Assembly: GCA_038049695.1 (NCBI GenBank)
Contig: CP142456.1
Coordinates: forward strand, 18,008,501 to 18,072,500
DNA length: 64,000 bases
Source: Cinnamomum chago
Taxonomy: Eukaryota; Streptophyta; Magnoliopsida; Laurales; Lauraceae
Direction: 5' to 3'
In this document: positions 6,961 through 49,430 of the stretch, piece after piece
Numbering within the stretch: the first letter of the stretch is position 1
How the letters are laid out: each line of letters opens with the position of its first letter
Made by a program: the position numbers and the translations under genes
Notes under the pieces: model-generated
Databases searched by the model: none
Seen by the model: only the letters and a program-made list of their open reading frames with translations
What the model was told of the DNA's origin: nothing

Positions 6961-8511
6961 AACTAGAACTTTGATTTCGTTTTCAATTGGAGGATTCTAT
7001 CATGATAACATGTGGTGTAACCTAACCCATATGGACATTTGCCACATATTATTGGGTTATTGGGTAGGGCATGGCAATACGACCGTCTGTACAATTTGTG
7101 TACTTTGATACCAAGTTGGATAATTGAATTTACAGAAAATTGAATTTTATTGAAGAAAGGTCTGAGATTTTTCATGAAAATTGGCATGGGAAGTGAGAAA
7201 AAGAGAGAAGAGGTTTAAGAGCGATAACTGGATGGTTGCCCAACCTTGCTCTTATTTTATTAAGTCTTTCAAAGTGACACGCAGACGGAAAAAATCATAC
7301 TATATTTACAGAACAGTCCCTGATTTTTTTGAAATTTCAGAAAAGTCCACCTTATTTCTCAGTTTCTCAACAGAAAGTACTGGCTGGCTTTTGTAAATAA
7401 TGAAGAAGTTCAATTCATATTATGATATTATCTTTCACCAAATGAAATTTTCTTTGGTTGTACGGATACAAAAGGAGTACCTGTAACTCCTGAATTATTA
7501 GCAATGGAATAACAGGTGGACTTAGAGGGTATTTTAAAAGAAAACTCCTTGTTTTATTGCTGCATGTGGTGTTTCAGAAATTAATATTATGAAGCATTAT
7601 GCAACTCTGGGCTTAATTATCTTCGCTATTTTCATAGTATCAAACCCTAGGGTTTCAATGCTGTCTTGGTGTGAAAATATTTAATAGTTATAGCATATGT
7701 TTTGCCTATGTTTTTTGTTTCTGAAAGGTGATCATTTCTCCGCTTGATCTGTGCCAAAAAAGAAATATATGCATTCACTGATGGTAGCAACTGCATACTG
7801 GCATAATGAGATCTTGATTGAAAAAAGATGACTTCTAACCTATGATGTCTAGATACGGATATGGATATGGACACTAATACGGGGATCAGGGATATGACTC
7901 CTAACTTATGAAAATCTAGCACACAGATACCGATATGGGTGTTCTAATTTTTCTTTAGATAACTTTTAAATCAATGAAATTATCCTTGTTTTCGTCCCTT
8001 TCTAGCATTTTTTATGGTAAGAAGTAAAAATATTAAAAGAGCTATATGAAATAATAGACCTTATAGGTAGGATATGTTAAAGTTGTTCCCTATTAATATC
8101 GGTGTAGTATCAGGTACCAATACAAGTGTCGTATCGGTCCGATACGGATATCATCGCTTCTTACTAATCTTGATATTTAGATTTCTTTTTTTATTATTAT
8201 TTTTGAATTCGCTCTAGTGTGTTTGAAGAGGTTAAAGGTGGCAAACACAACAAGAGGTGTAAAAATAGCACTATTACTTCTCAACATAGCTGCCAAATGG
8301 AGTAACTTTGAAAATATGGTTAATTATCTCTCTGTCTTAATATAAAAGTCGACCATTAAAGATGCAAAAGGTCTTGCATTTAATGTAAAGAAAATAAAAT
8401 AGTACAAACGTCATAGTCAATTGAAAAAGGTTTGCACTAAAGATATATATGTATTGCTGCAGAAAGGAGAGAGAGAGAGAGAGCACAAAAATGTCACTTG
8501 GTTCTTCTAAC

Positions 8512-9079
8512 CTGTGGAATAGGTAGCACAGCCAAGAAGTCTACAATAAAGTACCGACTCAGGTACCTCTCGGCTATCTGGGCAGGGTCTATCACAAGTT
8601 CACCTCTACCAAAAACACGAGATGATGGAGCAATATAAGCCGTACGAAATTGGAGAGCCATGCGAATAACATAGAATGCATCAACAATTGTCCGCACTGT
8701 GGTTGATGTGATTGCTAGCTTCTGGTCTATACCGAGACACATTGTCTCCTTGTAAACAACTGGAAGATAAAAAAATAATGGATCGACTGATACTGCAAGA
8801 ATACAAGATATAACAAAAAGCCTATTCAGTCTCTGAAGAAATTTATCCTGAGGATCGAATATCTTCGTCTTTGACACCTTGAGATCTTCAGGGAACATGG
8901 CCCTAGAAACCCCTGAGCGAAGCGATTGACCAATTGACTTGAGCCCTTCAGATCCCTTTCTCATTCCTTTCCTAAAGGATTTTGATGGCGGTTTGGATGC
9001 ATGACCCAGCCCATCAATATTAAATCCACATCTGTTCTTTTTTCCAGTATCAGAAGTCAGCGCCATTTTAGAGTCCAGC
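8512..9079 (-). CDS. CNGC channel, coding exon 2 (N-terminus to S3)
   Basis: A 568-nt exon of the same CNGC gene. The acceptor ACATCAG precedes 9079 and its first base completes an Arg codon begun in exon 1. It encodes an N-terminal cytosolic segment with CGFNIDG, KGSEGLKSIGQSL, FPEDLKV and KIFDPQDKFLQRLN, then S1 (LFVISCILAVSVDPLFFYLP), S2 (TIVDAFYVIRMALQF), APSSRVFGRGELVIDPAQIA and S3 (RYFIVDFLAVLPIPQ), ending at donor CAG|GTTAGA. These blocks are characteristic of group II plant CNGCs (CNGC5/6/9 type). The internal ATG at 9066-9064 is probably not the start, because a matching upstream exon exists at 15719-15661. No disabling mutation was seen. Confidence 0.95.
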
Positions 9080-9681
9080 CTGATGTATAAAAGCAAACAT
9101 CAACATTGCCTCTCATTTCTCTCTTCTTATAAACCACTGAAATACATATATGTATATGTGTGTATACATGTGTGTATGAAAATGATCCAAGTGTGCACCA
9201 TAATTAAGGTTTAAACCTTCCACTGTAGCATAACCTGGCCCGCTATGATTCAGCCATTCCGCGCTCTCACACTGACTACTGTCTTCAACCCCATGAATTG
9301 GCATTCACCCATTTTTGACACTTACCCACTCATCATTGGATTGAAAATGAAAAATATTGAAGCCTTTTTCAGAACCAATGATGGAGTTGAGAAGATGATG
9401 TGATGGGACTGATATTTAGGGCTAATGATCAATGAGACCAATCCATCCTCCCTCCACACCCCTCCACGCAATGACTAACATGCACCTAGGTGATCTCCAT
9501 CTCCTAAGTGACACTTTCATGTGTAATACTTGCACAAAACTCCAAAGGCCCACTGCAGGCCCCCACTAATCAAGGGGATGAAGGGACAAGAAAGTTCAAT
9601 AGATACATAAGGGATAGACTAATAACCATCCAAATCGTATTCCATTTCGCATGGATTTTAAGGGTTGAACATGAACAGTAA

Positions 9682-16102: not shown

Positions 16103-16393
16103 TGTAGAAGATGACAGGCCCAGCCCATGTGCCAAGCCCACTCATGGGATATACACAAATCTGTACAGGATTAGATTTAGTCCTTAATTTCTCACCTTCT
16201 ATGTATAGGATATAATTGATTCTTTCCATTCTTTTGTTATTCTGATTTGTATCTAATTTGTAATCTTTACTTAATTAGAGCCTTGATTAAGGCATCATAT
16301 CAATATAAATATGATAGTCGATGCTCTGTGTTGGCACGACCTTCTCCCACAATTTCTCTTCTTCTTCCTCTCCTTTCTTCATATATTATTACA
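16103..16393 (+). repeat. Copia-1 5' LTR
   Basis: 291 bp, from TGTAGAAGATGACAGG to ATTATTACA. A TATA-like AATATAAATATG occurs near 16301-16312. It differs from the 3' LTR at five single bases. Confidence 0.96.
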
Positions 16394-16406
16394 TGGTATC
16401 AGAGCC
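16394..16406 (+). promoter_or_regulatory. Copia-1 primer-binding site
   Basis: TGGTATCAGAGCC follows the LTR directly. It is the standard plant copia site complementary to the 3' end of initiator methionine tRNA. Confidence 0.95.
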
Positions 16407-16576
16407 ATAATCTCTTGGAGACGTCATCTACATCATCTTGGCAATACAGATCACGCATCTGTGCCTTTTGGAAGCAAAAACGTGAGTGAAAACTCACTGT
16501 TTCTCATCATGATCATAGTGGCCCACCTGCGATCATCACAATATACACAAGTCTCTCCCCAGCCTTGGTCGCCCAT

Positions 16577-16708
16577 CTATGATGCACGGATACTTCAAAA
16601 TGGGCAACGTATCGTATCCGATACTTCACTTTTTATGTGTAAAATCCGTGTCCCTGCCGTGTCTATAGTGTGTTCTTGTCATATCCATGCCGTATATGTG
16701 CATCATAG
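16577..16708. mobile_element. hAT-like MITE nested in Copia-1 leader
   Basis: 132 bp with terminal inverted repeats CTATGATGCAC ... GTGCATCATAG and an 8-bp flanking duplication TCGCCCAT (16569-16576) / TCGCTCAT (16709-16716), one mismatch. The 8-bp size points to the hAT superfamily. It has no coding capacity. It shares its core (CAACGTAT, ATCCGATACTTCACTTTTTATG) with the copies at 10070 and 50516. It must have inserted after Copia-1 or been present in its source copy. Confidence 0.9.
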
Positions 16709-17165
16709 TCGCTCATCTCTTCTTGTCTTTTTGAAGATTTTTTCAAAATTTTTCAGAGATCAGAGGTAGGCCTTTTGATCCATCTTGTGATTATTCAACT
16801 TTCTGAAATTGTTTTCATCACAGCCGCACAAAATCCTAGATTCTGAATGGATTTTGGTGCGACCTTCGCTGCTGGAAAGGGATTTTGATCCTGGTTTCTA
16901 GCCTCTCATCTGATTATCAATCAGATCTCCCTGTGGGCCCCACGAAGGGATCAAGCCATCAAAATCCAGTTCGTCTGGACTGTTTCTAGGCTGATTTTTT
17001 TGCACTTGTGTGTGCTGTGTGCGTTTGGACACCTCATCCCCTACTATTGAAGTGCTGTCTTGGATTTGGGGGTTGTTTGAACTCCTCATCAACTATTTTT
17101 GGCCTGCTGCTGGTTGTTTTTCTTCTTCAAATTGCTGCTGATCTTTCTTATCTTCTATTTCTGCA

Positions 17166-20100
17166 ATGGAAAAGTATAATGTTATCCCAATTAAATTTAA
17201 CGGATAGAATTATATGTCCTGGTCTTTCCATTTAAAGAACTTCGTTGAAGGACAAGGGCTTTTTGGTTATCTTGATGGGTCGATCACTCAGCCACAGCCT
17301 ACCAGTACCACTGATTCCAAAAACTTAGCCACCCGATCCAAAGAAAATGCTAGAGTGATCACGTGGATCCTTAACTCCATTGATCCATCTCTTGCTGTGG
17401 CTCTTCAAGCCTACACTACCGCAGCTGACATGTGGGCTCATCTCAGGAAAGTCTATCATCAAACCAATAAGGCCCGGAAGTTTCACTTGGATAGTGAAAT
17501 TGCAAAGTATAATCAAGGGGATAAATCTGTGCAGGATTACTTTAATGGTTTCCTCACCTTATGGACTGAAAGGGATTCCATGTTGATCCAAACAGTCACT
17601 TCCGGATTTCTATCTAAGGCTCTCCAGTTGCAAAAAGAAACTCATATTAGCCAGTTTCTTATGAATCTACGACCCGAATTTGAATCTGTCAGGTCAACTC
17701 TCATGAATAGAGAAAATTCTGCTAATCTTGATACCTGCTTTCAAGAGGTCCTTCGCGAGGAACTTCATCTCACCTCCCAGCGTACTATTCTGGAAGAACC
17801 AAAAGCCTTCCTTGCACCACTTCCCGCCGACTCGGCTCTTTTGGCAACCCCAACTCCGAAGCAGACTCAATGTTATGAATGCAAAGGCTTCGGACATATT
17901 GCCAAAAATTGCCACAAGAAATTGGTTTGTAGGTATTGCAAACGGACCGGTCATCTTATTGAGGACTGTCGCAGCCTACAGCAATGGAATGAGACACAGC
18001 CTAAGAAGCCTCCCTCCAATCTGCCACGACAGAATATGCCTTTCGCGTTCCAGGCTCAAGCACCATCATCTGATGCAGGAAGCACTTCATCTGGGGCTGT
18101 ATCCATGACTCCTGCTCAGATTCAAGAACTGATCCAGAGCACGGTTACCTCTGCATATGCGTCTATGGGCTTCTCTAGCGGTCGGTATCAAACTCATTCT
18201 CATATAGCATCTCCAGCTTTTCATTCCCCTGCCTCTCTTTCCTCTCCTATTACCTCTTCTACATGGTTTTTAGATTCAGGAGCCTCAAACCACATGACAT
18301 CTGTAGAACATAGTTTTACAAAGTCCCACCCGTACCTTGGAAAAGAGAAAATAACCACTGCTAATGGTGATCAACTACTCATTTCAGGAGTTGGTACCAT
18401 TACTTTATCTAGTGTGTTTGGCCAGTCCATCACCCTTCTCAATGTTTACTTTGTTCCTAAATTATCTGCCAATCTTCTTTCTGTAGGACAACTTACTGAT
18501 GATGGCTATCTTGTTCACTTTTCCTCCTCTGGTTGTGTTATACAGCGGTGACAAACTGGGAAGGTGATCACGACGGGGAGTAAACACGGGAGCCTGTTCT
18601 TGCTGGACATTGGACATCATTCCTTCTTTGCTTCTTCTTCTTCTAATGTCAATAAATTGTGGACTGTTTGGCATAGACGTCTTGGTCATGTGAACAATGC
18701 ACATTTACTTTCCTTGTTTAAATTTGGTTGTCCGGATTCTACTATGGATAATAAAATGTTGTCTTCCTCATCTCAATCTAAGTGTGAAACTTGTTGCTTA
18801 AGTAAAAGTCATGTTTTGCCTTTTCCTGTTCATAATGCTCGTGCTTTGGCATCATTTGACATTATTCATTCAGATGTTTGGGGAATTGCTCCTACCTTGA
18901 GTAGGACGGGATTTAAATACTATGTGACCTTTATTGATGATCATTCTCATTATACTTGGATTTACTTTATGCGCGTGAAATCTGAGGTCTTCTCCATTTT
19001 TCAAAAATTTTATAACATGGTCCAAACCCAATTTCAGAAAGCAATCAAAATTCTTAGATCAGATTCCGGTGGAAAATACATGTCTCATGAATTCTCTGCC
19101 TTCCTTTTTGATAAAGGAATTCTTCACAAAAAATCTTGCCCGTATACTCAGCAAAATGGGATTGCGGAAAGAAAGATCAGACATATTCTTGAAACTGTTC
19201 GTACTTTGTTGATTGCATCCTTAGTCCCTCCCAAATTTTGGTGTGATGCTGCACAGACTGCTGTGTATCCTATCAACCATCTTCCTAGCACTGTTCTAGG
19301 CAAGACTACTCCTTACGGAGTTCTCTTTGGTCAAACCCCTTCATACTCTCACTTACGTGTTTTTTGTTGCCTGTGTTTTGTTCATCTTCCTCCTACTAAG
19401 CGCACAAAGTTATCTCCACAGGCTGCTAAATGTCTCTTTTTGGGTTACAGTAATGAAGACAAAGGGTTTTTGTGTTATGATCAATTGGACAAACGCATGC
19501 GCATCTCTCGTAATGTTATTTTCTTGGAACATATTCCCTTCTTTTCTTTACATTTGGAGAGTCATCCTATTGTTGTATCTTATCTGCCACAATTCTCGGA
19601 GTCTGCTTCTCCAGCACCTCTTCCCAAAGTCTATGTCCGGCTAAACAAGGTCCCTCATCTGGCGACTCCCTCTCCTGATCCTCTCCTAGAGCCGCCTACT
19701 GAATCTTCAGATAATGTAACTTCTTCTGATAGCACCATTTCTCTGCGACGCTCTAATCGTCCTTCTGTTGCCCCTAACCGTTATAGATTTCTTGCTCTTC
19801 TTACTTCCTTAGATAGTACTCATATACCCACCTCATATTCACAGGCCTCAAAGGTTGCTTACTGGCAGGATGCTATGACTGAGGAATTAGTTGCTCTTGA
19901 AGCAAACCAAACATGGGAATTGGTACCGGCCCTGGATGGAGCATCTGTGATTGGCAGCAAATGAATATACTCCGTCAAAGTCCACTCTGATGGGAAACTT
20001 GATCGCTACAAAACCAGATTGGTTGCATAAGGATATAAACAGGAATATGGCATTGATTATGAGGAAACATTTGCACCAGTGGCGAAAATGACTACCATTC

Positions 20101-21374
20101 GTACTCTTCTTTGTGTCGCGGCAGCCCGTAATTGACCTCTATAACAAATGGATGTCAAAAATGCTTTTCTACATGGGGATTTGCGCGAGACTGTTTATTT
20201 AAAACCTCCACCAGGATATGCTTGTCCTCCAAAGAATGTGTGCAAATTGAGGAAAGCTCTTTATGGGCTTAAACAAGCTCCCCGGGCTTGGTTTGATAAG
20301 TTCCGGGCAGCAATCCTTCAAGCCGGATTTCGTCAGAGTCACTCTGATAGTTCCATCTTCCTAAGATGGACATCAAAGGGCTACACATTCCTCTTGGTCT
20401 ATGTTGATGATATGATTATCAGTGGAAATGATACTGCCAGCATTACAGATCTCAAACACCACCTTACTCACCACTTCAAAATGAAGGATCTTGGTCCTCT
20501 TACCTACTTTCTGGGGCTTGAGTTTGTATGTTACAAATCCGGCATTAAGGTCCTTCAGCGCAAATATGCGTAAGATTTGATCACGTCAGCCAGGCTTGAT
20601 GATGCTCACACTTTCGATACGCCTCTGGAATTTAACAGCCAAATCAGTTCCAATGATGGCACTCCCCTGGATGATCCATCTGTTTTCCGGCGGATAGTTG
20701 GTAGTTTGCTCTACTTAACTATAACTCGGCCGGATATTTCTCATGCAGTTCACACGGTAAGTCAGTTTGTTAGCAATCCCCACAAACCGCACCTTGTTGC
20801 TGCGTTACGCATCCTCCGCTATGTTAAAAGAACTCTTCATCATGGTCTCTTTTTCCCTTCTGATACTTCTCTGCGATTATCAGCTTATGCGAATGCTGAT
20901 TGGGCTGGCTGTCCGGACTCTCGGAGGTCTACCACTGGCTGGTGTATGTTTCTTGGAAAATCTCTGATATCATGGAAGCGCAAGAAGCAAACCACTGTCT
21001 CAAAGTCTTCTGCTGAGGCAGAATATCGGGCGATGTCCTCCACCGGTACTAAAATTATCCGGCTCCACCGCCTTCTGTGTGAATTGGGTGTCCTTGTTGG
21101 TAGTTCCACACCTCTCCATGGGGACAATACCAGTGCTACCAGAATTGCCAACAACCTAGTCTTCCATGAAAAAACAAAGCACGTCGAGATTGACTGTCAC
21201 TTCATCCGTCGACATGTTGTTACTGAGAAGATAACTCTGCCTCATGTATCTTCTTTTAACCAGTCGGCAGATATCTTCACCAAAGCACTTCCCAAACAGC
21301 GTCATCATGATCTAACTTGCAAATTGATGTTTTCAAACTTACCACATCAATTTGAAGGGGAGTGTAGAAGATAA
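17166..21374 (+). pseudogene. Copia-1 gag-pol with seven nonsense codons
   Basis: A single register from ATG 17166 to TAA 21372-21374 without frameshifts. Domains in order: gag with two zinc knuckles (CYECKGFGHIAKNC, CRYCKRTGHLIEDC, about 17871-17970); protease TWFLDSGASNHM (about 18260); GAG-pre-integrase VWHRRLGHV; integrase with HSDVWG, FIDDHSHYTW, RSDSGGKY and NGIAERK; reverse transcriptase MDVKNAFLHGDL, LYGLKQAPRAW and YVDDMII; RNase H ADWAGCPDSRRSTTG, HGDNTSA and KHVEIDCHFIR. In-frame stops are at 17205, 18549, 19962, 20028, 20133, 20142 and 20571. At least two sit where the family has Trp (TGG to TGA). The protein ends inside the first bases of the 3' LTR, as is common for copia elements. 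Confidence 0.95.
21354..21362 (+). promoter_or_regulatory. Copia-1 polypurine tract
   Basis: GAAGGGGAG immediately precedes the 3' LTR. It is the expected primer for plus-strand DNA synthesis. Confidence 0.9.
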
Positions 21375-21653
21375 CAGGCCCAGCCCATGTGCCAAGCCCA
21401 CTCATGGGATATACACAAATCTGTACAGGATTATATTTAGTCCTTAATTTCTCTCCTTCTATGTATAGGATATAATTGATTATTTCCATTCTTTTGTTAT
21501 TCTGATTTGTATCTAATTTGTAATCTTTACTTAATTAGAGCCTTGATTAAGGCATCATATCAATATAAATATGATAGTTGATGCTCTGTGTTGGCACGAC
21601 CTTCTCCCACAATTTCTCTTCTTCTTCCTCTCCTTTCTTCATATATTATTACA
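21363..21653 (+). repeat. Copia-1 3' LTR
   Basis: 291 bp, 286 identical to the 5' LTR. It is followed by the target duplication ATGGA at 21654-21658. Confidence 0.96.
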
Positions 21654-29985: not shown

Positions 29986-30442
29986 TGTAAGAAACAATAC
30001 ACCAAGATCTTTGATCGAGGAAACCCTAATAAACCAAGATCCTCTATGTCAAATCATTGAGAGAAGTAAAGCGGAAACATACCTGGATCCATTGAATGAA
30101 GTTGTTCACAAGTTGTTGATCTTCCAATCCAATATGGCTACCCAGAGAAACCCTCTTGATTCTTCTGATGATGGGATGTCAGAGAGAATAGGTATTCTCC
30201 ATATGAATTGGGGACCATAACCCTAATATATAAGATATCATAAGTTTGCTATTTCTAATTTGGCCCTTCATCAAATCAGAAATAGCATTATGATATCTAC
30301 ACATTAATTCCATGACAAGTATACCCTTAAGCCTTACAACTTTAAGTCTTAATTAGATCACTTTAATGTAGGCTTAACCAAAGATAACATGACACATTTA
30401 ATAGTTACACGTGTGGCCCCACATGATGGAATTTTTCCAACA
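29986..30442 (-). repeat. Copia-2 3' LTR
   Basis: 457 bp. On the minus strand it begins TGTTGGAAAAATTCC and ends GTTTCTTACA. It differs from the partner LTR at 10 single bases. Confidence 0.95.
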
Positions 30443-30872: not shown

Positions 30873-33800
30873 CTATAATGTGATATCCTCACACAAAATA
30901 ACACCCATATGAGCAGTGTGCTCATGAAAGACCTTGGGTGGTAATCCCTTTGTAAGCGGATCCGCTATCATGGAGTTTGTCCCAATGTGCTCTATGGATA
31001 TCTGTTTATCCTGTATTCTCTCCTTCACAACTAGGAACTTAATGGCAATATGTTTTGACCTAATTGAGCTCCTGTTGTTGTTGGAATATAGCACTGCTGA
31101 TTTATTATCACAATATAGTTTGAGTGGTCTTTCAATACCCTCCAGAACTCGCAGCCCAGTGACAAAATTTCGCAGCCACATTCCTTGGTTGGATGCCTCA
31201 TAGCATGCTACAAACTCTGCTGCCATGGTGGAATCAGTTACGAGTGTCTGTTTGGCACTCCTCTAAGAAATAGCTCCACCTGCTAACAGGTATATGTAGC
31301 CTGATGTGGATTTCATACTGTCTTGGCATCCAGCATAATCGGAGTCGGAATACCCTATGATCTCCAACTGATCCGATTTCCTATATGTGAGCATATGATC
31401 TTTTGTTCTCTGTAAATACCTCATAACCCGCTTGGCTGCTTTCCAATTATCCATCCCTGGATTGCTTAAATATATGCCTAAGATACCAACAATGTACGCA
31501 ATATCCGGACACGTACACACCATAGCATACATTAGACTCCCTATAGCTGATGCATATGGAATCTTCTGCATTTCCTTAACTTCAAGGTTAGTTTTAGGGC
31601 ATTGATTGAGACTGAACTTGTCTCCCTTAGAGACAGGGGTGTCACCTAGTTTGCTGTCCTGCATGCCAAACCTTTTGAGTACTTTATCAATATAGCTTCT
31701 TTGTGATATTCCAAGAATACCCCGAGAGCGATCTCGTTGTATCAGGATCCCTAATACAAAAGAGGCGTCACCAAGATCTTTCATCTCAAAATTCTTTGAT
31801 AGAAATCTTTTGGTTTCATGCAACATGCATATATCATTTGTGGCAAGCAATATGTCATCGACATACAAAACCAGGAATATGTGCTTACTCCCACTGAATT
31901 TGTGATACACACAATTATCAACAACGTTTGTCTCAAAACCAAACGAGATAATCACTTGATGAAACTTGTGATACCACTGATGAGAAGCTTGCTTGAGTCC
32001 ATAGATGGACTTTGTCAATTTACATACCATATTCTTTGGGTCTCCCGACTCAAAGTTTTCTGGCTGCACCATATAAATTGTTTCGTCAATTTCACCATTG
32101 AGAAATATTGTTTTGACATCCATTTGACGAAGCTCAAGATCAAAATGCGCAACTAGTGCCATGATTGTCCGAAAAGAGTCTTTCGATGAAACCGGAGAGA
32201 AAGTCTCTTTAAAGTCAATCCCTTCCTTTTGGGTAAAGCTTTTAGCTACAAGACGAGCCTTATACCTCTCCACATTACCATTTGAATCCCTTTTGGTTTT
32301 AAAAATCCATTTGCAACCAATGGGCTTCACACCTTCTGGTGATGGGACAAGTTCCCAAACCTTATTGTCTTGCATAGACTTATATTCCTCATTCATGGCA
32401 TCAATCCACTTTTGAGAGTTAGAACCTTGCATGGCTTGATGGAAGTTGATTGGATCATTTTCCACCATTCCAATTTCTTCCTCATGTTCTTGGAGAAATA
32501 CGAAAAAATCGTCCGGAATAGCATGTCTCCTTTCTCTAGTGGACCGCCTTAATGGCACTGGTTCTTGAGGTTGTTGAGTTTGTTCCTCATCTTGAATGGG
32601 GGGTTGATCAACATTGTTTGGTTGAGGATCCGGATTCGCTTATTGACTGATGACAGGTATAGAAACTTGCACATTGTCAAAAGCAATAGTGGAAATCGAA
32701 ACCGATTCTTCCTCAAAGACAATGTCTCTAACCTTATTTCTCCCCCCAAACTCAACATCCTAAAAAAATGTTGCAGTTCCCGTCTCAAAAATTGACCTAA
32801 GTGTGGGATCATAAAACTTATAGCCCTTAGATCGCTCAGAGTAGCCAATGAAGTAGCTGCTCACGGTTTTGGAGTCCAATTTCTTTTCATGTGGCCTGTA
32901 AGGCCTTGCCTCAGCTGGACATCCCCAAATGTGAAAATGTTTTAGACTAGGCTTTCTATCTGTCCAAAGCTCATAAGGTGTTTTTGCAGCTGCTTTAGTT
33001 GGCACTCTATTTAGAATATAAGCCGCTGTTTTGAGTGCTTCTCCCCATAGTGACTCTGGTAGAGTGGAATGATTAATCATACTCCTTACCATATCCTTAA
33101 GAGTCCGGTTTCGCCTTTCAGATATACCATTCATGCTAGGTGACCCTGACATGGTGTATTATGGGACGATTCCACATTCCTCTAGGAATTTAGTAAACGG
33201 TCCTGGACGTTGTTCACCTGAACCGTCATATCTGCCGTAGTATTCACCACCACGGTCAGACCTGACACTCTTTATTCTTTTGTTGAGTTGGTTCTCAACT
33301 TCAGCTTTAAATGTTTTGAACACGTCCAAAGACTGTGATTTCTCATGAATGAGAAATAGGTATCCATAGCGAGAGTAATCGTCTATGAATGATATGAAAT
33401 ACTGTTGGCCATTCCAGAAAGCCGTAGGGAATGGTCCATAGATATCTGTGTGTATCAATTCTAAGACGTCTGTAGTTCTATTGGCACCTAATTTCTTCAT
33501 TTTAGTCTGTTTTCCCTTGATGCAAGCAATACAAATATCAAAGTTTGTAAAGTCAAGGGAATCTAAAATGCCATCAGACACAAGTCGCTTAACTCTGGAC
33601 TCAGAGATGTGACCTAAGCGTTTGTGCCATAATGTAGCCGAGTTTTTTTTATTCAGTTTGCGTTTAGTACCTCGTGATTCCACATGCAAGGATTCATTGT
33701 AAGAAACAATTGTATCAAGCAAATATAAGTTGTCATATACACATAGAGAACCAGTTCCAACAACATTTGAATTTATAGATAAACTGAATTGATTGTTTCC

Positions 33801-34925
33801 AAATGAACAAAAATAACCAAACTTGTCCAATAAAGAAACTGAAACCAAATTCCGTCGAAAAGACGGTACAATAAAAGTGTCTAATAAATCCAAATAATAA
33901 CCAGTGTTTAATAACAACCTAAAATGCCCTATTGCCTCTACTTCTACCGACTTTCCATCGCCCACAAAGATGTGTCTTTCAGCATCACTTGGCTTTCGGT
34001 AGCTCAGGCAACCCTGCATAGAAACACTGATGTGAGTAGTAGCACCAGAATCTAACCACCACGTGTTTCTAGGTACTGTAGCTAAATTTACCTCAGAACA
34101 GACCAAAGCAAGAAATGTACCTTTCTTTACACGCCAAGCGTGATATTTGGTACATTCCTTCTTCACATGTCCAGGCTTGTTGCAAAAGAAACAACCCTCA
34201 GTTGCTGGCTGTTGTTTCTTTTCTGCTGGACCCTTAGCAGCTTCATTTTTCTTCCTCTTTTTGCCCTTATCCTTAGAGGTGCTAGCCAAATGAGCACTTT
34301 CGGTTCTGTCTTGCTTCAATCTCTCTTCCTCTTGCACACAGTAAGAAATGAGCTCATTAAGAGTCCATTTTTCCTTTTGACAGTTGTAACTGACCTTAAA
34401 TTGACTGTATAGTGCAGGAAGTGATATTAATACCAAATGCACGAGCAAGTCGTCAGACAGCTCGAGCTTCAGTGCCTTAAGCTTAGAAGCAATATGAGAC
34501 ATTCCCATAATGTACTCCTGTATGTTCCCCTTGCCATTGTACTTCATAGAAATCAAGCTTTGCAAAAGTGTGCTTGTTTCTGCCTTATCGTTTTTCAGAA
34601 AACTCTTTTCAATTTCGGCTAGGAATTCTTTGGCTGTGGTTAGCTTTTCAGATACCACACCCCTAAATGCCTCCGAAATGCCGCGCTTGATGATCATATG
34701 ACTCATGCGATTTGAGCGATCTCACTTTTCAAAGTTCTTCTTGTCATCAGGAGAACTTGCATCCGTAAGAGAAGTGGGCTGCTCAATCCGTAGTGCAAGG
34801 TCTAGATCCATGCAGTCGAGAACAATTTCTATGTTCTCTTTCCAATCCTAAAAGTTGGTCCCATTAAGTACATGTATTGAGTTAATATTAGCAGATATGG
34901 TAGAAACACTAGCTGTAAAGAAAAC
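30873..34925 (-). pseudogene. Copia-2 gag-pol with six nonsense codons
   Basis: One continuous register on the minus strand. The gag N-terminus contains LNGTNF, DWKENIEIVLDCMDLDLALR and YIMGMSHIASKLKAL; then a zinc knuckle CFFCNKPGHVKKEC; protease WWLDSGATTHIS; LWHKRLGHIS; integrase with HTDIYGPFP, FIDDYSRYGYL, RSDRGGEYY and NGISERRNR; reverse transcriptase YKARLVAKSF, MDVKTIFLNGEI, YGLKQASHQWY and YVDDILLA; RNase H SDSDYAGC, YCDNKSAV and ADPLTKGLP; stop near 30873. Premature stops are at 34848-34850, 34722-34724, 33159-33161, 32760-32762, 32640-32642 and 31263-31265. No obvious ATG opens the frame. A CTTTACAG|CTAGTG acceptor-like site at the 5' edge of gag hints at splicing from the leader, which is inference. 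Confidence 0.94.
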
Positions 34926-35529
34926 AAAAACAAACAGACAAACATGCTCATATTATTAACCAAATGCAATAAGCAACAAATTCAAATAATGGTAAGTCTC
35001 ATGTCAAGGTACCTAGCACAAATTAATATTAAGTCTTTGGACAGTGATATTAATTGTAAATGGTCATCTTGTTGTAGTGATCAAACATTGACAATAATTC
35101 ATGTCAAATAATAAATCTATCTTTGGATCGACTTATTATGCGCATGTAAAATCCTTATAATCGTCATACGTTTACCACCACAGGTGTGTATGCAATTCGG
35201 CCAAGTATTAACCTTCCTTTGGGCCGACTAAGACCCGCATGAATTTACACACACACAAACATCCAATATTCCTCATGAACAATCTAGACAAGAGAGGTCA
35301 CTTTGGTAACATCTTGTTTCAATTAGTCCTTTTAGAATAATGGACTATTTTATTTAATCATAAAAGAGATACCATAAAATATTTGAATTGGCGTTGAAGA
35401 AAACCAATGAGTTGTCTTCACATGTCACCACAAACGAAAAAAAAAAGTTTTTTTTTTTAAACTCTTGGACCACCATACAACCCAACATCTTCTCAAAAAT
35501 CGTGTAATAATTCTGGATTGCTTCCTTCT
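34926..35529 (-). other. Copia-2 leader between LPAT fragment and gag
   Basis: Non-coding and AT-rich, with a T-run/A-run near 35438-35460. No host gene similarity was seen here. Confidence 0.6.
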
Positions 35530-35980
35530 ATAGGCTTGTTAATAACAACTTTTATAGATCCCAAATTTAATGTGGCCTCCATTCCAGGAGGCATAAGCTT
35601 GCTAGTTCCAACAAGAGTAATTGGTACAACTGGCACCCTAGCCTTTGCTGCAACACTAAATGCACCTTTTTAAAGGGACCCAATTTGCCATCCTTGCTAC
35701 GAGTTCCCTCTGGAAAGAAAAAAATAAAAAAACAGATGCTCCCTTTTTCACCATTCCAATTGACTTCTGCTGTCCATTCTTCGCAATGGAATAACGCCCA
35801 TAAGAAACATGGCCCATCCAATGATCGGAATCACAAAAATTCATGTCTTGCTAATGAACTTGAAACTTCTCCCAAGAGTTAGAAGCGTATATGTATCTAG
35901 AAAGGTCTGATGATTTGAAACATAAACAGCAGGGGTGCCGGCAGGCGGCAAATTCTCTAAGATCAATATACACGCTCCCA
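35530..35980 (-). pseudogene. Captured plastid-type LPAT fragment, intronless
   Basis: This is a fragment of 1-acyl-sn-glycerol-3-phosphate acyltransferase, the enzyme that converts lysophosphatidate to phosphatidate. The closest recall is the plastid LPAT1/ATS2 type. On the minus strand it reads ENLPPAGTPAVYVSNHQTFL followed by D (acyltransferase NHx4D block), LLTLGRSFKFISKT, IIGWAMFLMGVIPLRRMD, KKGAS, FFPEGTRSKDGKLGPFKK, then in a shifted frame VPVVPITLVGTSKLMPPGME. It is broken by a TGA (35841-35843), a deletion of about ten codons before KKGAS, extra T-rich bases before FFPEGTRS and a one-base deletion near 35667. No introns separate blocks that plant LPAT genes spread over several exons, so an mRNA origin is likely. 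It is in the same orientation as the retroelement and lies inside its LTRs. Confidence 0.9.
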
Positions 35981-36210
35981 GTTCTTGGTTGCAAAGTGGC
36001 ATGCAAATAAGATATATATAAAAGTATGATTCTTCCTGCTGCAGAAACCCTAACATTAACCAAGAGAAAGGGAGGGAGAGATAACCCTAAACCCTTTTTC
36101 CCATCTAGGGCTTCGTTGTCCCAGGAAGAAAGGAAAGCAGATTGCAACCAAAGAACAGAATATCAACAGATTGATTTATATCTGGATTCTCAATGGCTTA
36201 ACATGGAGAT

Positions 36211-36222
36211 GCTCTGATACCA
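36211..36222 (-). promoter_or_regulatory. Copia-2 primer-binding site
   Basis: TGGTATCAGAGC on the minus strand, two bases inside the 5' LTR; complementary to initiator methionine tRNA. Confidence 0.93.
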
Positions 36223-36224
36223 AT

Positions 36225-36681
36225 TGTAAGAAACAATACACCAAGATCTTTGATCTAGGAAACCCTAATAAACCAAGATCCTCCATGTCAAATCATTGAG
36301 AGAAGTAAAGCGGAAACATACCTGGATCCATTGAATGAAGTTGTTCACAAGTTGTTGATCTTCCAATCCAATATGGCTACCCAGAGAAACCCTCTTGATT
36401 CTTCTGATGATGGGATGTCAGAGAGAATATGTATTCTCCATATGAATTGGGGACCATAACCCTAATATATAAGATATCATAAGTTTGTTATTTCTAATTT
36501 GGCCCCTCATCAAATCAGAAATAACATTCTGGTATCTACACATTAATTCCATGACAAGTATACCCTTAAGCCTTACAACTTTAAGTCTTAATTAGATCAC
36601 TTTAATGTAGGCTTAACCAAAGATAGCATGACACATTTAATAGTTACACGTGTAGCCCCACATGATGGAATTTTTCCAACA
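36225..36681 (-). repeat. Copia-2 5' LTR
   Basis: 457 bp, 447 identical to the left-hand LTR. Confidence 0.95.
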
Positions 36682-38130: not shown

Positions 38131-38137
38131 ATCATAT

Positions 38138-38555
38138 TTTCAAGAGATTGATTTATCCAGTGCTAATGAGTGCTTGTTGGATTTTACTAATGTCTTTACC
38201 ACTGACAAGATATTCAAAAGCCGAAAGGGTCTAATCCAATGGACAAGGGATGTTGGAAAGAAACATGGCTTAGTAATTTCAATTAAAACTCCAGATGCTG
38301 GTGGAGATGGTAGGAAGCCGAGAATAGTTTTTTCTTGTGAGAGAAGTGGTAGTTACGGGGGTCCATCGAATGTCTTTGAAAAGGAAAATCCTAATAAGGC
38401 AACGAAAACGAAGAAGTGTAGTTGCCCTTTTGCTTTGAATGGCCAAAAGTTGGCAACAGACGATGATTGGATGGTAACAGTGGTTTGTGGGGTGCACAAC
38501 ATCTCGAGGGACACTCGTTTGCTGGGAGGCTTTCTGATGAAGAAATTAACGTTTT
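38138..38555 (+). pseudogene. FAR1-like DNA-binding domain of a MULE, fragment
   Basis: The frame runs FQEIDLSSANECLL, FTTDKIFKSRKGLIQWTRDV, GKKHGLVISI, GGDGRKPRIVFSCERSGSY, KTKKCSCPFALNG and WMVTVVCGVHN, the arrangement of the FAR1/GCM-type zinc domain at the N-terminus of Mutator-like transposases and FAR1-related proteins. After VVCGVHN a deletion plus frameshift moves the match to a second frame, HLEGHSFAGRLSDEEINVLI. The match then stops at about 38555 where an unrelated repeat begins. The transposase core (MULE DDE domain) is not present in the window. A retired FAR1-like host gene is the alternative. Confidence 0.75.
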
Positions 38556-47379: not shown

Positions 47380-49430
47380 TAAGTTATTGTTTGCTGTTGA
47401 AATGAATTATGATGATGATTTTTTTTTATGAGTTGGGAATGTTTATGATCATGCATTTCATCCAATAGCTTAAGACGAAACAATATAAAAATATATATAT
47501 ATATATATATATTTTCGAACTCTCAATGTTATTCTTATCTATATAGTTGAAAGCGAACTGAGGTTGATATGTTTTGTTTTAAAAACAAAAATACCCACAT
47601 TGGGCTCTCAAATATGGTATCTTTTTAGGCCTTGGATTGAAAATTCTGAAAATGTTGGCTTTGGGGGTTTTTTTTTTTTTTTTTTTTCAAATGAAACTCC
47701 GAACTTGAACATATTGTTTATTCAGTTCTTTTCACATTATCATAATTGCTTTTGTTGTGTGAAATGGATTGATTGAATTTGTGAATTGTTTGATGAGTTT
47801 ATGTGAATTTTTATGGTAAAATAAAAGTCACTACTTTGTGCCCAGCGGATTTGTTGCAGCCTCTTGGGTTGCGGTATCATCTCAAAGAGCAGTCAACTAT
47901 ACAATGCACCACAAACACCCATAGACCTTTTACACAATATAGTTGCCGAAATGAAAACACTTTCCTATCTTACATACAGAGACCAATATATCCTCGCAAG
48001 AAACAAGCAAAAATAATAAGCAAAAATAATTGTCGCTTGTTGCGTCATGCACAACTAAATTAAATAATCGAACCACAACGTTGAGACGGAGGAAGAGCAT
48101 GCACAAGAATGCTGTTCAACAAATGTGTGATGATCATTAATTTATTAGATGTTTAATCTTTAATGTTAAGACCTTAAAATTTATTTTTTAAATCCATGAT
48201 TTTTATTCATGGCACTTGTCCATGTAAATACTTGTATTTTGGAAATTCATGAAATGTGTTGCGAAGAATTGCAGTGTGACTATTTTCATTTATTTGACTG
48301 AATTATTTTATCATATTGTATAATTTTGTAAATGTTGTTGTTGGATTATTTGTTGGTTAAATGATGTTGTTAGTGACTCCCTACATGAATTGCTCCACGT
48401 GTATAAAATAACTTATAGAGAAATAAAGTAATTTGGTCTAATAAATGAAAATACTCTCGCCACAATTCATCACAACACAATTCATGAAGTTCCAAAAACA
48501 AAAGTTTTTACATGGACGAGTGACATGAATCCAATATCATGAACTTCATGCAAAGCCTAAAAAAAGAAATATTTAAAAATAAATGTCTAGGTTAACATTA
48601 TAGATTAAACATCTAATAAATTAATGATCATCCCACATTTGTAGAGCAATTGTATTCCAAAGCTCACATGCAAATCAAGAGTTGACATCACTCTAAAAGG
48701 ACCCAATTTCCCAATCCTCCTCAACATTGATGTCTTCATCAACATCCATCTTTTGTGCATGCACTTCCTCCATCTTATCGCTATAGTTCCATTATTTGAT
48801 TTAGTTGTACATGACGCAAAAAGTGACGACTATTTGTGCTTGTGTCTTGAGAAGATATCGTGGTCTTATCTGCAAGATACGAAAGTGTTGCTTCACGGCA
48901 AAAATGTGTTCCACTTTGCATAATTTAGACTGCTCGTAAATTGAAGGCTTCTTTGGTCATTTGTGGTCCTTGTGTAGTTGACTGTTCCTTGAGATGATAG
49001 CGCACCGAAGAGGGTGCAGCAAATATGTTGTACACAAAGTAGTGACAAATAAGCATATTTTATTTTACCATATAAATTCACATAAACTCATCAAAAAAGT
49101 CAGAATCAACTTCAATTCATTTCCCACAACAAAAGCAAGCATAATAATGTGAAAAGAAATAAAAAAACAATATATTCGAGGTCAGAATTTGATTGGGAAA
49201 ACAATACCCAAGACATGAATAACATTCAGAGTACTCAATTCAAGGCCTCAAAACGAAACCATATTTGAGTGTTCATTGTGGGTAATTTTGTATATCATAT
49301 AAAATCCATGATCATAAACTTGCAATACCCATCGGAAAAATCATCATTTACACTCCCAACTCATCAGAGAAAACATCATCATAATTCATTTCAACATCAA
49401 ACAATAACTTATTTACAAGGAAAAAAAAGA
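47380..49430. repeat. Large inverted repeat, two ~0.95 kb arms
   Basis: The reverse complement of about 48410-49430 follows 47380-48340 nearly end to end with substitutions and indels. Matching blocks in order: AATAAGTTATTGTTTG; GTTGAAATGAATTATGATGA; TCAAATATGGT; TGATGAGTTTATGTGAATTT; GGTAAAATAAAA; GTCACTACTTTGTG; CAGTCAACTA; GATCATTAATTTATTAGATG followed by TTTAATCT; TATTTTCATTTATT. About 70 bp separates the arms. The open frames at 47803-48063 and 48893-49081 (both starting MN-YGKIK) are the same repeat read in each arm and belong to no known family. Confidence 0.85.

Follow-up and report, generated by a model that had tools for sequence, protein, structure and literature searches.

The Copia-2 element and its surroundings

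The window, i.e., the whole 64-kb stretch of DNA that was analyzed, harbors a 6.7-kb Copia element on the minus strand, Copia-2, which is bounded by LTRs (Table 1). Each LTR has a length of 457 bp and, read in element sense (minus), starts with TG and ends with CA. The pair differs by 10 substitutions (7 transitions, 3 transversions) and 0 indels; the same 10 of 457 had been given in the initial annotation, and our ungapped re-measurement reproduced it. Paired TG...CA LTRs, a primer-binding site (PBS) next to the 5' LTR and an integrase that precedes the Copia reverse transcriptase (RVT_2) in the Pfam domain order identify Copia-2 as a Ty1/copia LTR retrotransposon. A PBS search of the whole window with at most two mismatches gave 5 matches, compared to an expected mean of 0.61. 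A scripted search at the ends of the element did not detect any exact target-site duplication of 4-6 bases, the best reading being ATGAC/ATGGC with four out of five bases in agreement. A second Copia-2 copy was not found within the 64-kb window.

Table 1. Coordinates of Copia-2 and its parts in the window, listed in element sense
Feature	Position	Strand	Evidence and remarks
5' LTR of Copia-2	36225-36681	minus	97.8% identity to 29986-30442, ungapped, TG...CA ends
Primer-binding site	36210-36223	minus	TTGGTATCAGAGCA; exact match; adjoins 5' LTR
Leader, 5' part	35962-36209	minus	no Pfam match in the three scanned of six listed translated pieces
Captured LPAT fragment, putatively plastid-type, pseudogenic	35505-35961	minus	Pfam PF01553, NCBIfam TIGR00530, frame analysis
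Leader, 3' part	34913-35504	minus	AT-rich; 3'-splice-site-like tract TTTTGTTTTCTTTACAG at its end
gag-pol	30873-34912	minus	single continuous frame, 6 internal stops, no frameshift
3' LTR of Copia-2	29986-30442	minus	97.8% identity to 36225-36681, ungapped, TG...CA ends

The K2P distance between the LTRs is 0.0223, corresponding to an insertion age of 0.86, 1.6, 2.4 or 4.5 million years at 1.3e-8, 7e-9, 4.72e-9 or 2.5e-9 substitutions/site/year, respectively; these ages are rough, as all four rates are assumed and the true rate of the host may differ. Roughly, then, this copy was inserted ~0.9-4.5 million years ago. The rate of 1.3e-8 substitutions/site/year was also employed in PMC5664825.

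The gag-pol frame (~4 kb) terminates at the stop at 30875-30873. Its internal stops have their first bases at 34850, 34724, 33161, 32762, 32642 and 31265; two more stops (34958 and 34955) are in the same frame but belong to the leader and were left out of the count of six. Pfam orders the domains as Copia-type gag (Retrotran_gag_2), zinc knuckle, Pol beta-barrel domain, gag_pre-integrs, rve, SH3_retrovirus and RVT_2, and gives no match in 30876-31226, the expected end of RNase H. The N-terminus of gag is devoid of an ATG, and 34913 (minus strand) is the end of a strong 3'-splice-site-like tract. The top-scoring donor-like site (35212, minus) could link gag in frame with a leader ORF, thereby skipping the 300-nt AT-rich stretch 34913-35212. 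This hint of splicing is weak, as 16 of the 65 GT sites in the leader yield an open frame and the donor weights are approximations.

Several other features were observed in the window. A second Copia element (16103-21653, plus) has 291-bp LTRs that are 98.3% alike, gag and integrase domains, a PBS-like ATGGTATCAGAGCC at 16393 and translated similarity to the pol of Copia-2; among the matches listed for this element there is no LPAT piece. An exon-like open stretch at 8497-9099 (minus) has a weak Pfam Ion_trans match (E 5.8e-5, 22.8 bits, cut-off 25) and presumably resembles a plant cyclic nucleotide-gated channel. The region 47572-49304 consists of large inverted self-similar stretches (69-71% alike), perhaps a foldback element. 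Finally, 38132-38554 (plus) weakly matches AFT/FAR1-like sequences (Pfam AFT E 7.5e-4, 20.2 bits, cut-off 21.6), and may derive from a MULE or a FAR1-type gene.

A decayed acyltransferase fragment in the leader

Between the PBS and gag, in sense with gag-pol, Copia-2 carries a 457-bp fragment with LPAT homology. This placement inside the LTRs had been proposed in the initial annotation and is borne out by the LTR pair, the exact PBS and the minus-strand domains. The span proposed there, 35530-35980, captured the piece itself, as PF01553 and the motifs indicate, and deviated from the ends of the homology by ~20-25 bp on each side. The fragment comprises four acyltransferase stretches, which are colinear from 35961 down to 35505 and spread over three frames. 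Translated separately, they match PF01553 with E-values of 2.8e-4, 0.086, 0.001 and 0.17, covering in this order profile positions 8-46, 52-74, 94-115 and 113-131, with each piece alone below the Pfam cut-off of 23 bits. A hand-stitched mosaic of the four reaches 98.8 bits (E 2.8e-28) against PF01553, and 92.6 bits (E 1.5e-26) against TIGR00530 (1-acylglycerol-3-phosphate acyltransferase), below the cut-off of 102.95; the mosaic has X at the stop and across a lost stretch and its small insertion is smoothed out, and such stitching inflates the E-values. Judged from the sequence, the homology is nevertheless well beyond chance: four colinear pieces match one family, which together with the mosaic score rules out a fortuitous similarity. 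It is almost certain that the fragment was captured within Copia-2.

A PDB search with the fragment gave two rows. One is a bacterial 1-acylglycerol-3-phosphate acyltransferase (5kym, E 0.015); the other, PsbY (E 4e-4), was judged spurious, as it is built from four short matches that score 3-6 bits apiece. A bacterial or contaminant relative was also looked for: the scan of genome contigs gave 151 matched stretches, six of which encode a relative, all bacterial and with 38-77% identity in the best segment. One of these loci, L004, with only 22 residues matched, had been considered as an intron-bearing algal contaminant and was dropped when its full read turned out to be an uninterrupted bacterial acyltransferase gene. 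No relative was present among the 22 matched stretches of the viral contigs scan. Neither were further host pieces found in the leader or the 3' non-coding stretch of Copia-2, where the sole Pfam row had an E-value of 0.14 (the scan covered 10 out of 25 listed translated pieces with a length of at least 28 aa).

The fragment carries the boxes NHQTFLD and FPEGTRS. According to PMC5333453, NHQXXXD and FPEGT constitute the pattern of plastidial LPAAT1, and NHXSXXD that of the B-class, which NHQTFLD does not satisfy because the serine is absent. The boxes thus fit a plastid-type LPAT, in agreement with the initial call, with the reservation that a single substitution could change a motif in a decayed piece. 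Whereas the fragment shares both boxes with plastidial LPAAT1 (Arabidopsis At4g30580 type), it differs in that it is limited to the central acyltransferase stretch, its frame is broken and it lies inside an element. One stop and three frame-breaking indels interrupt the frame; the indels amount to ~22 nt lost, ~8 nt gained and 1 nt lost, sizes estimated by reference to the profile positions, the frames and a plant LPAT motif. An intact enzyme reading frame is absent, and the fragment is non-coding and dead as a protein.

Evidence for a spliced source

In the fragment, the distance from NHQ to FPEG is 202 nt. Corrected for the loss of ~22 nt and the gain of ~8 nt, this spacing equals 72 codons and falls within the 68-72 codons of bacterial relatives (nine motif pairs from five of six loci; none in L005). 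There is therefore no intron between these motifs, nor was an intron-sized gap observed. The contiguity of the coding blocks reported earlier thus holds as regards introns, but not as regards the frame, which is broken by the three indels and the stop. Since the fragment is contiguous and lies in sense, derivation from spliced RNA is likely. No clear poly(A) remnant is seen at the end of the fragment: an A-run of 11 (35448-35458, minus) is situated ~46 nt past the LPAT homology and gives way to a T-run.

For an algal plastidial LPAAT1, a coding amplicon of 943 bp corresponds to a gene of 1,865 bp with introns (PMC6415348), LPAT1 (AT4G30580) primers appear under an alternative-splicing analysis (PMC12287322), and At4g30580 is among the genes drawn with exons and introns, with no positions in the text (PMC6545605). 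In the portions of the literature available to us, no plant LPAT1 exon map with intron positions within this stretch was found; likewise, the accessible text of PMC5333453 gave no exon number for plastidial LPAT, and that of PMC3270531, PMC2944999 and PMC9375321 no exon positions for the plastid LPAT1 gene.

Alternatively, the piece may have entered a single copy as DNA, for instance as break-repair filler, after or shortly before insertion and from either a broken LPAT pseudogene or a genomic exon run. Such an entry requires a genomic source of 457 bp without introns, and it makes the sense orientation (a 1 in 2 chance) and the location within the leader coincidental. We consider it unlikely, even though Copia-2 is known here from only one copy.

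Probable decay before the last jump

The ~457 bp of the LPAT fragment contain three frame-breaking indels, while none is present in gag-pol (~4.07 kb) or distinguishes the two LTRs. If indels had accrued at the same rate throughout after insertion, the fragment would receive all three with a probability of ~6e-4 with the LTRs counted and ~1e-3 with gag-pol alone (4,066 bp), in a test that draws on one Copia-2 copy. Because gag-pol is frameshift-free and the LTRs are without indel while the fragment has three, the latter was probably broken before the jump. Most likely, it carried its indels before the present copy arose, either in an earlier element copy or in a pseudogene source. We prefer decay inside an earlier element copy, which implies mobility with the element, because the piece lies in sense within the leader; its presence in the element before the last jump is, in our judgment, highly likely.

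Two of the three indels fall in homopolymer-rich tracts, which mutate fast, and the contrast between LPAT and gag-pol becomes weak once these are subtracted. The density of stops shows no similar contrast, with 6 in ~1,350 gag-pol codons vs 1 in ~150 LPAT codons, where the gag-pol stops are assumed to have arisen after insertion. Entry as DNA would account for the indel excess without an old capture, yet some of the decay of the fragment must still predate such an entry. As to the earlier suggestion that the capture travelled with a recently active element, the indel contrast reinforces it, with the amendment that what travelled was a dead passenger rather than a carried gene.

Probable route of capture and possible effect on the element

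The best explanation overall, and one that we regard as reasonably probable, is that a piece of host plastid-type LPAT mRNA entered the leader of a Copia element in an earlier replication cycle and subsequently remained as a passenger. We infer that the reverse transcriptase would have moved from the RNA of the Copia element onto a spliced LPAT mRNA packaged with it, and then back, so that the piece landed in the leader during that earlier cycle. It would then have decayed without selection, while the element lineage continued to transpose by means of gag-pol, either its own or a borrowed one. Both template switching between co-packaged RNAs and read-through transduction have been described as routes to chimeric LTR elements (PMC13317346); a sense, spliced sequence is expected from either. 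In plants, retrotransposon-transduced genes are mostly found in gag-pol sense (PMC7264820).

Transcriptional transduction would involve an element or LTR that once lay beside an LPAT gene, giving rise to a chimeric spliced read-through RNA that, after packaging, became part of the leader by recombination, in the manner of oncogene capture by retroviruses. It likewise yields a sense, spliced host sequence, and the cases of Bs1 and Rider have been ascribed to it (PMC13317346). We nevertheless rate it as rather improbable, as recombination would be required at two points flanking an internal site in the leader and, according to the same source, 5' transduction is unreported in plants.

Besides template switching as the preferred route, the possible use of the piece by the element was considered. 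If transcribed, it is an additional 5' leader with upstream ATGs, supplying 10 of the 26 ATGs between 36440 (assumed transcript start) and 35241. If anything, these ATGs would burden the translation of gag. A leader ATG at 36056 continues in frame into the first LPAT block, resulting in a chimeric ORF of 71 codons. This ORF, which may be due to chance, speaks for the idea that the piece belongs permanently to the whole Copia family, long fixed and kept for a leader use such as packaging, translation or a small-RNA role. Indels and the stop preclude any protein use beyond the 71-codon ORF, and we hold such a standing role to be very improbable. Likewise, the antisense RNA idea of the initial annotation finds no support in the layout: as the piece lies in sense with the element, the transcript of Copia-2 itself is sense to LPAT mRNA, and antisense or small RNA from the piece would require a further step.

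Comparison with known captures and implications

Capture of gene fragments by plant LTR retrotransposons is already well established, and the LPAT piece in Copia-2 is a further, fairly ordinary case. In maize, 425 intact LTR elements with gene fragments represent at least 189 independent captures, and 36 of these elements are Copia (PMC2774510), while 672 and 1,343 LTR-captured genes are given for rice and sorghum, respectively (PMC3726574). As in these genomes, the gene fragment described here is borne by an LTR retrotransposon, a category that includes Copia elements. The accessible text of both sources did not name LPAT among the captures, and, going by titles and the beginnings of abstracts, no published LPAT capture by an LTR retrotransposon was found. 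Similar to Bs1, in which host gene segments without a full-length ORF lie within an LTR element (PMC13317346), Copia-2 contains host gene sequence devoid of a full-length ORF. However, the three host segments of Bs1 are fused into a transcribed and translated chimeric gene, whereas Copia-2 has one broken fragment beside a stop-ridden, frameshift-free gag-pol. In the retroduplication of pepper NLR genes, spliced mRNA was captured and kept inside LTR elements, ~72% being in elements without gag or pol coding potential (PMC5664825). Those are annotated genes, mostly in elements lacking gag/pol, in contrast to the short dead fragment that sits beside gag-pol in Copia-2.

In summary, the LPAT piece of Copia-2 is a clear, roughly datable gene scrap that a Copia element with gag-pol carries in its leader. 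The comparison of a frameshift-free element frame with an indel-rich passenger provides a simple, single-copy test of whether a capture predates the last jump, and is usable in other genomes. That the piece is common to many recent copies of the Copia-2 family, and that its transcripts or small RNAs act on the host plastid LPAT gene, is improbable in the extreme. The Arabidopsis counterpart of this gene is listed as needed for embryo development (PMC2944999). If family-wide, the LPAT piece could connect an essential lipid gene with a mobile element, and, if RNAs from it did act on LPAT, a housekeeping lipid gene would be partly controlled by a mobile element.
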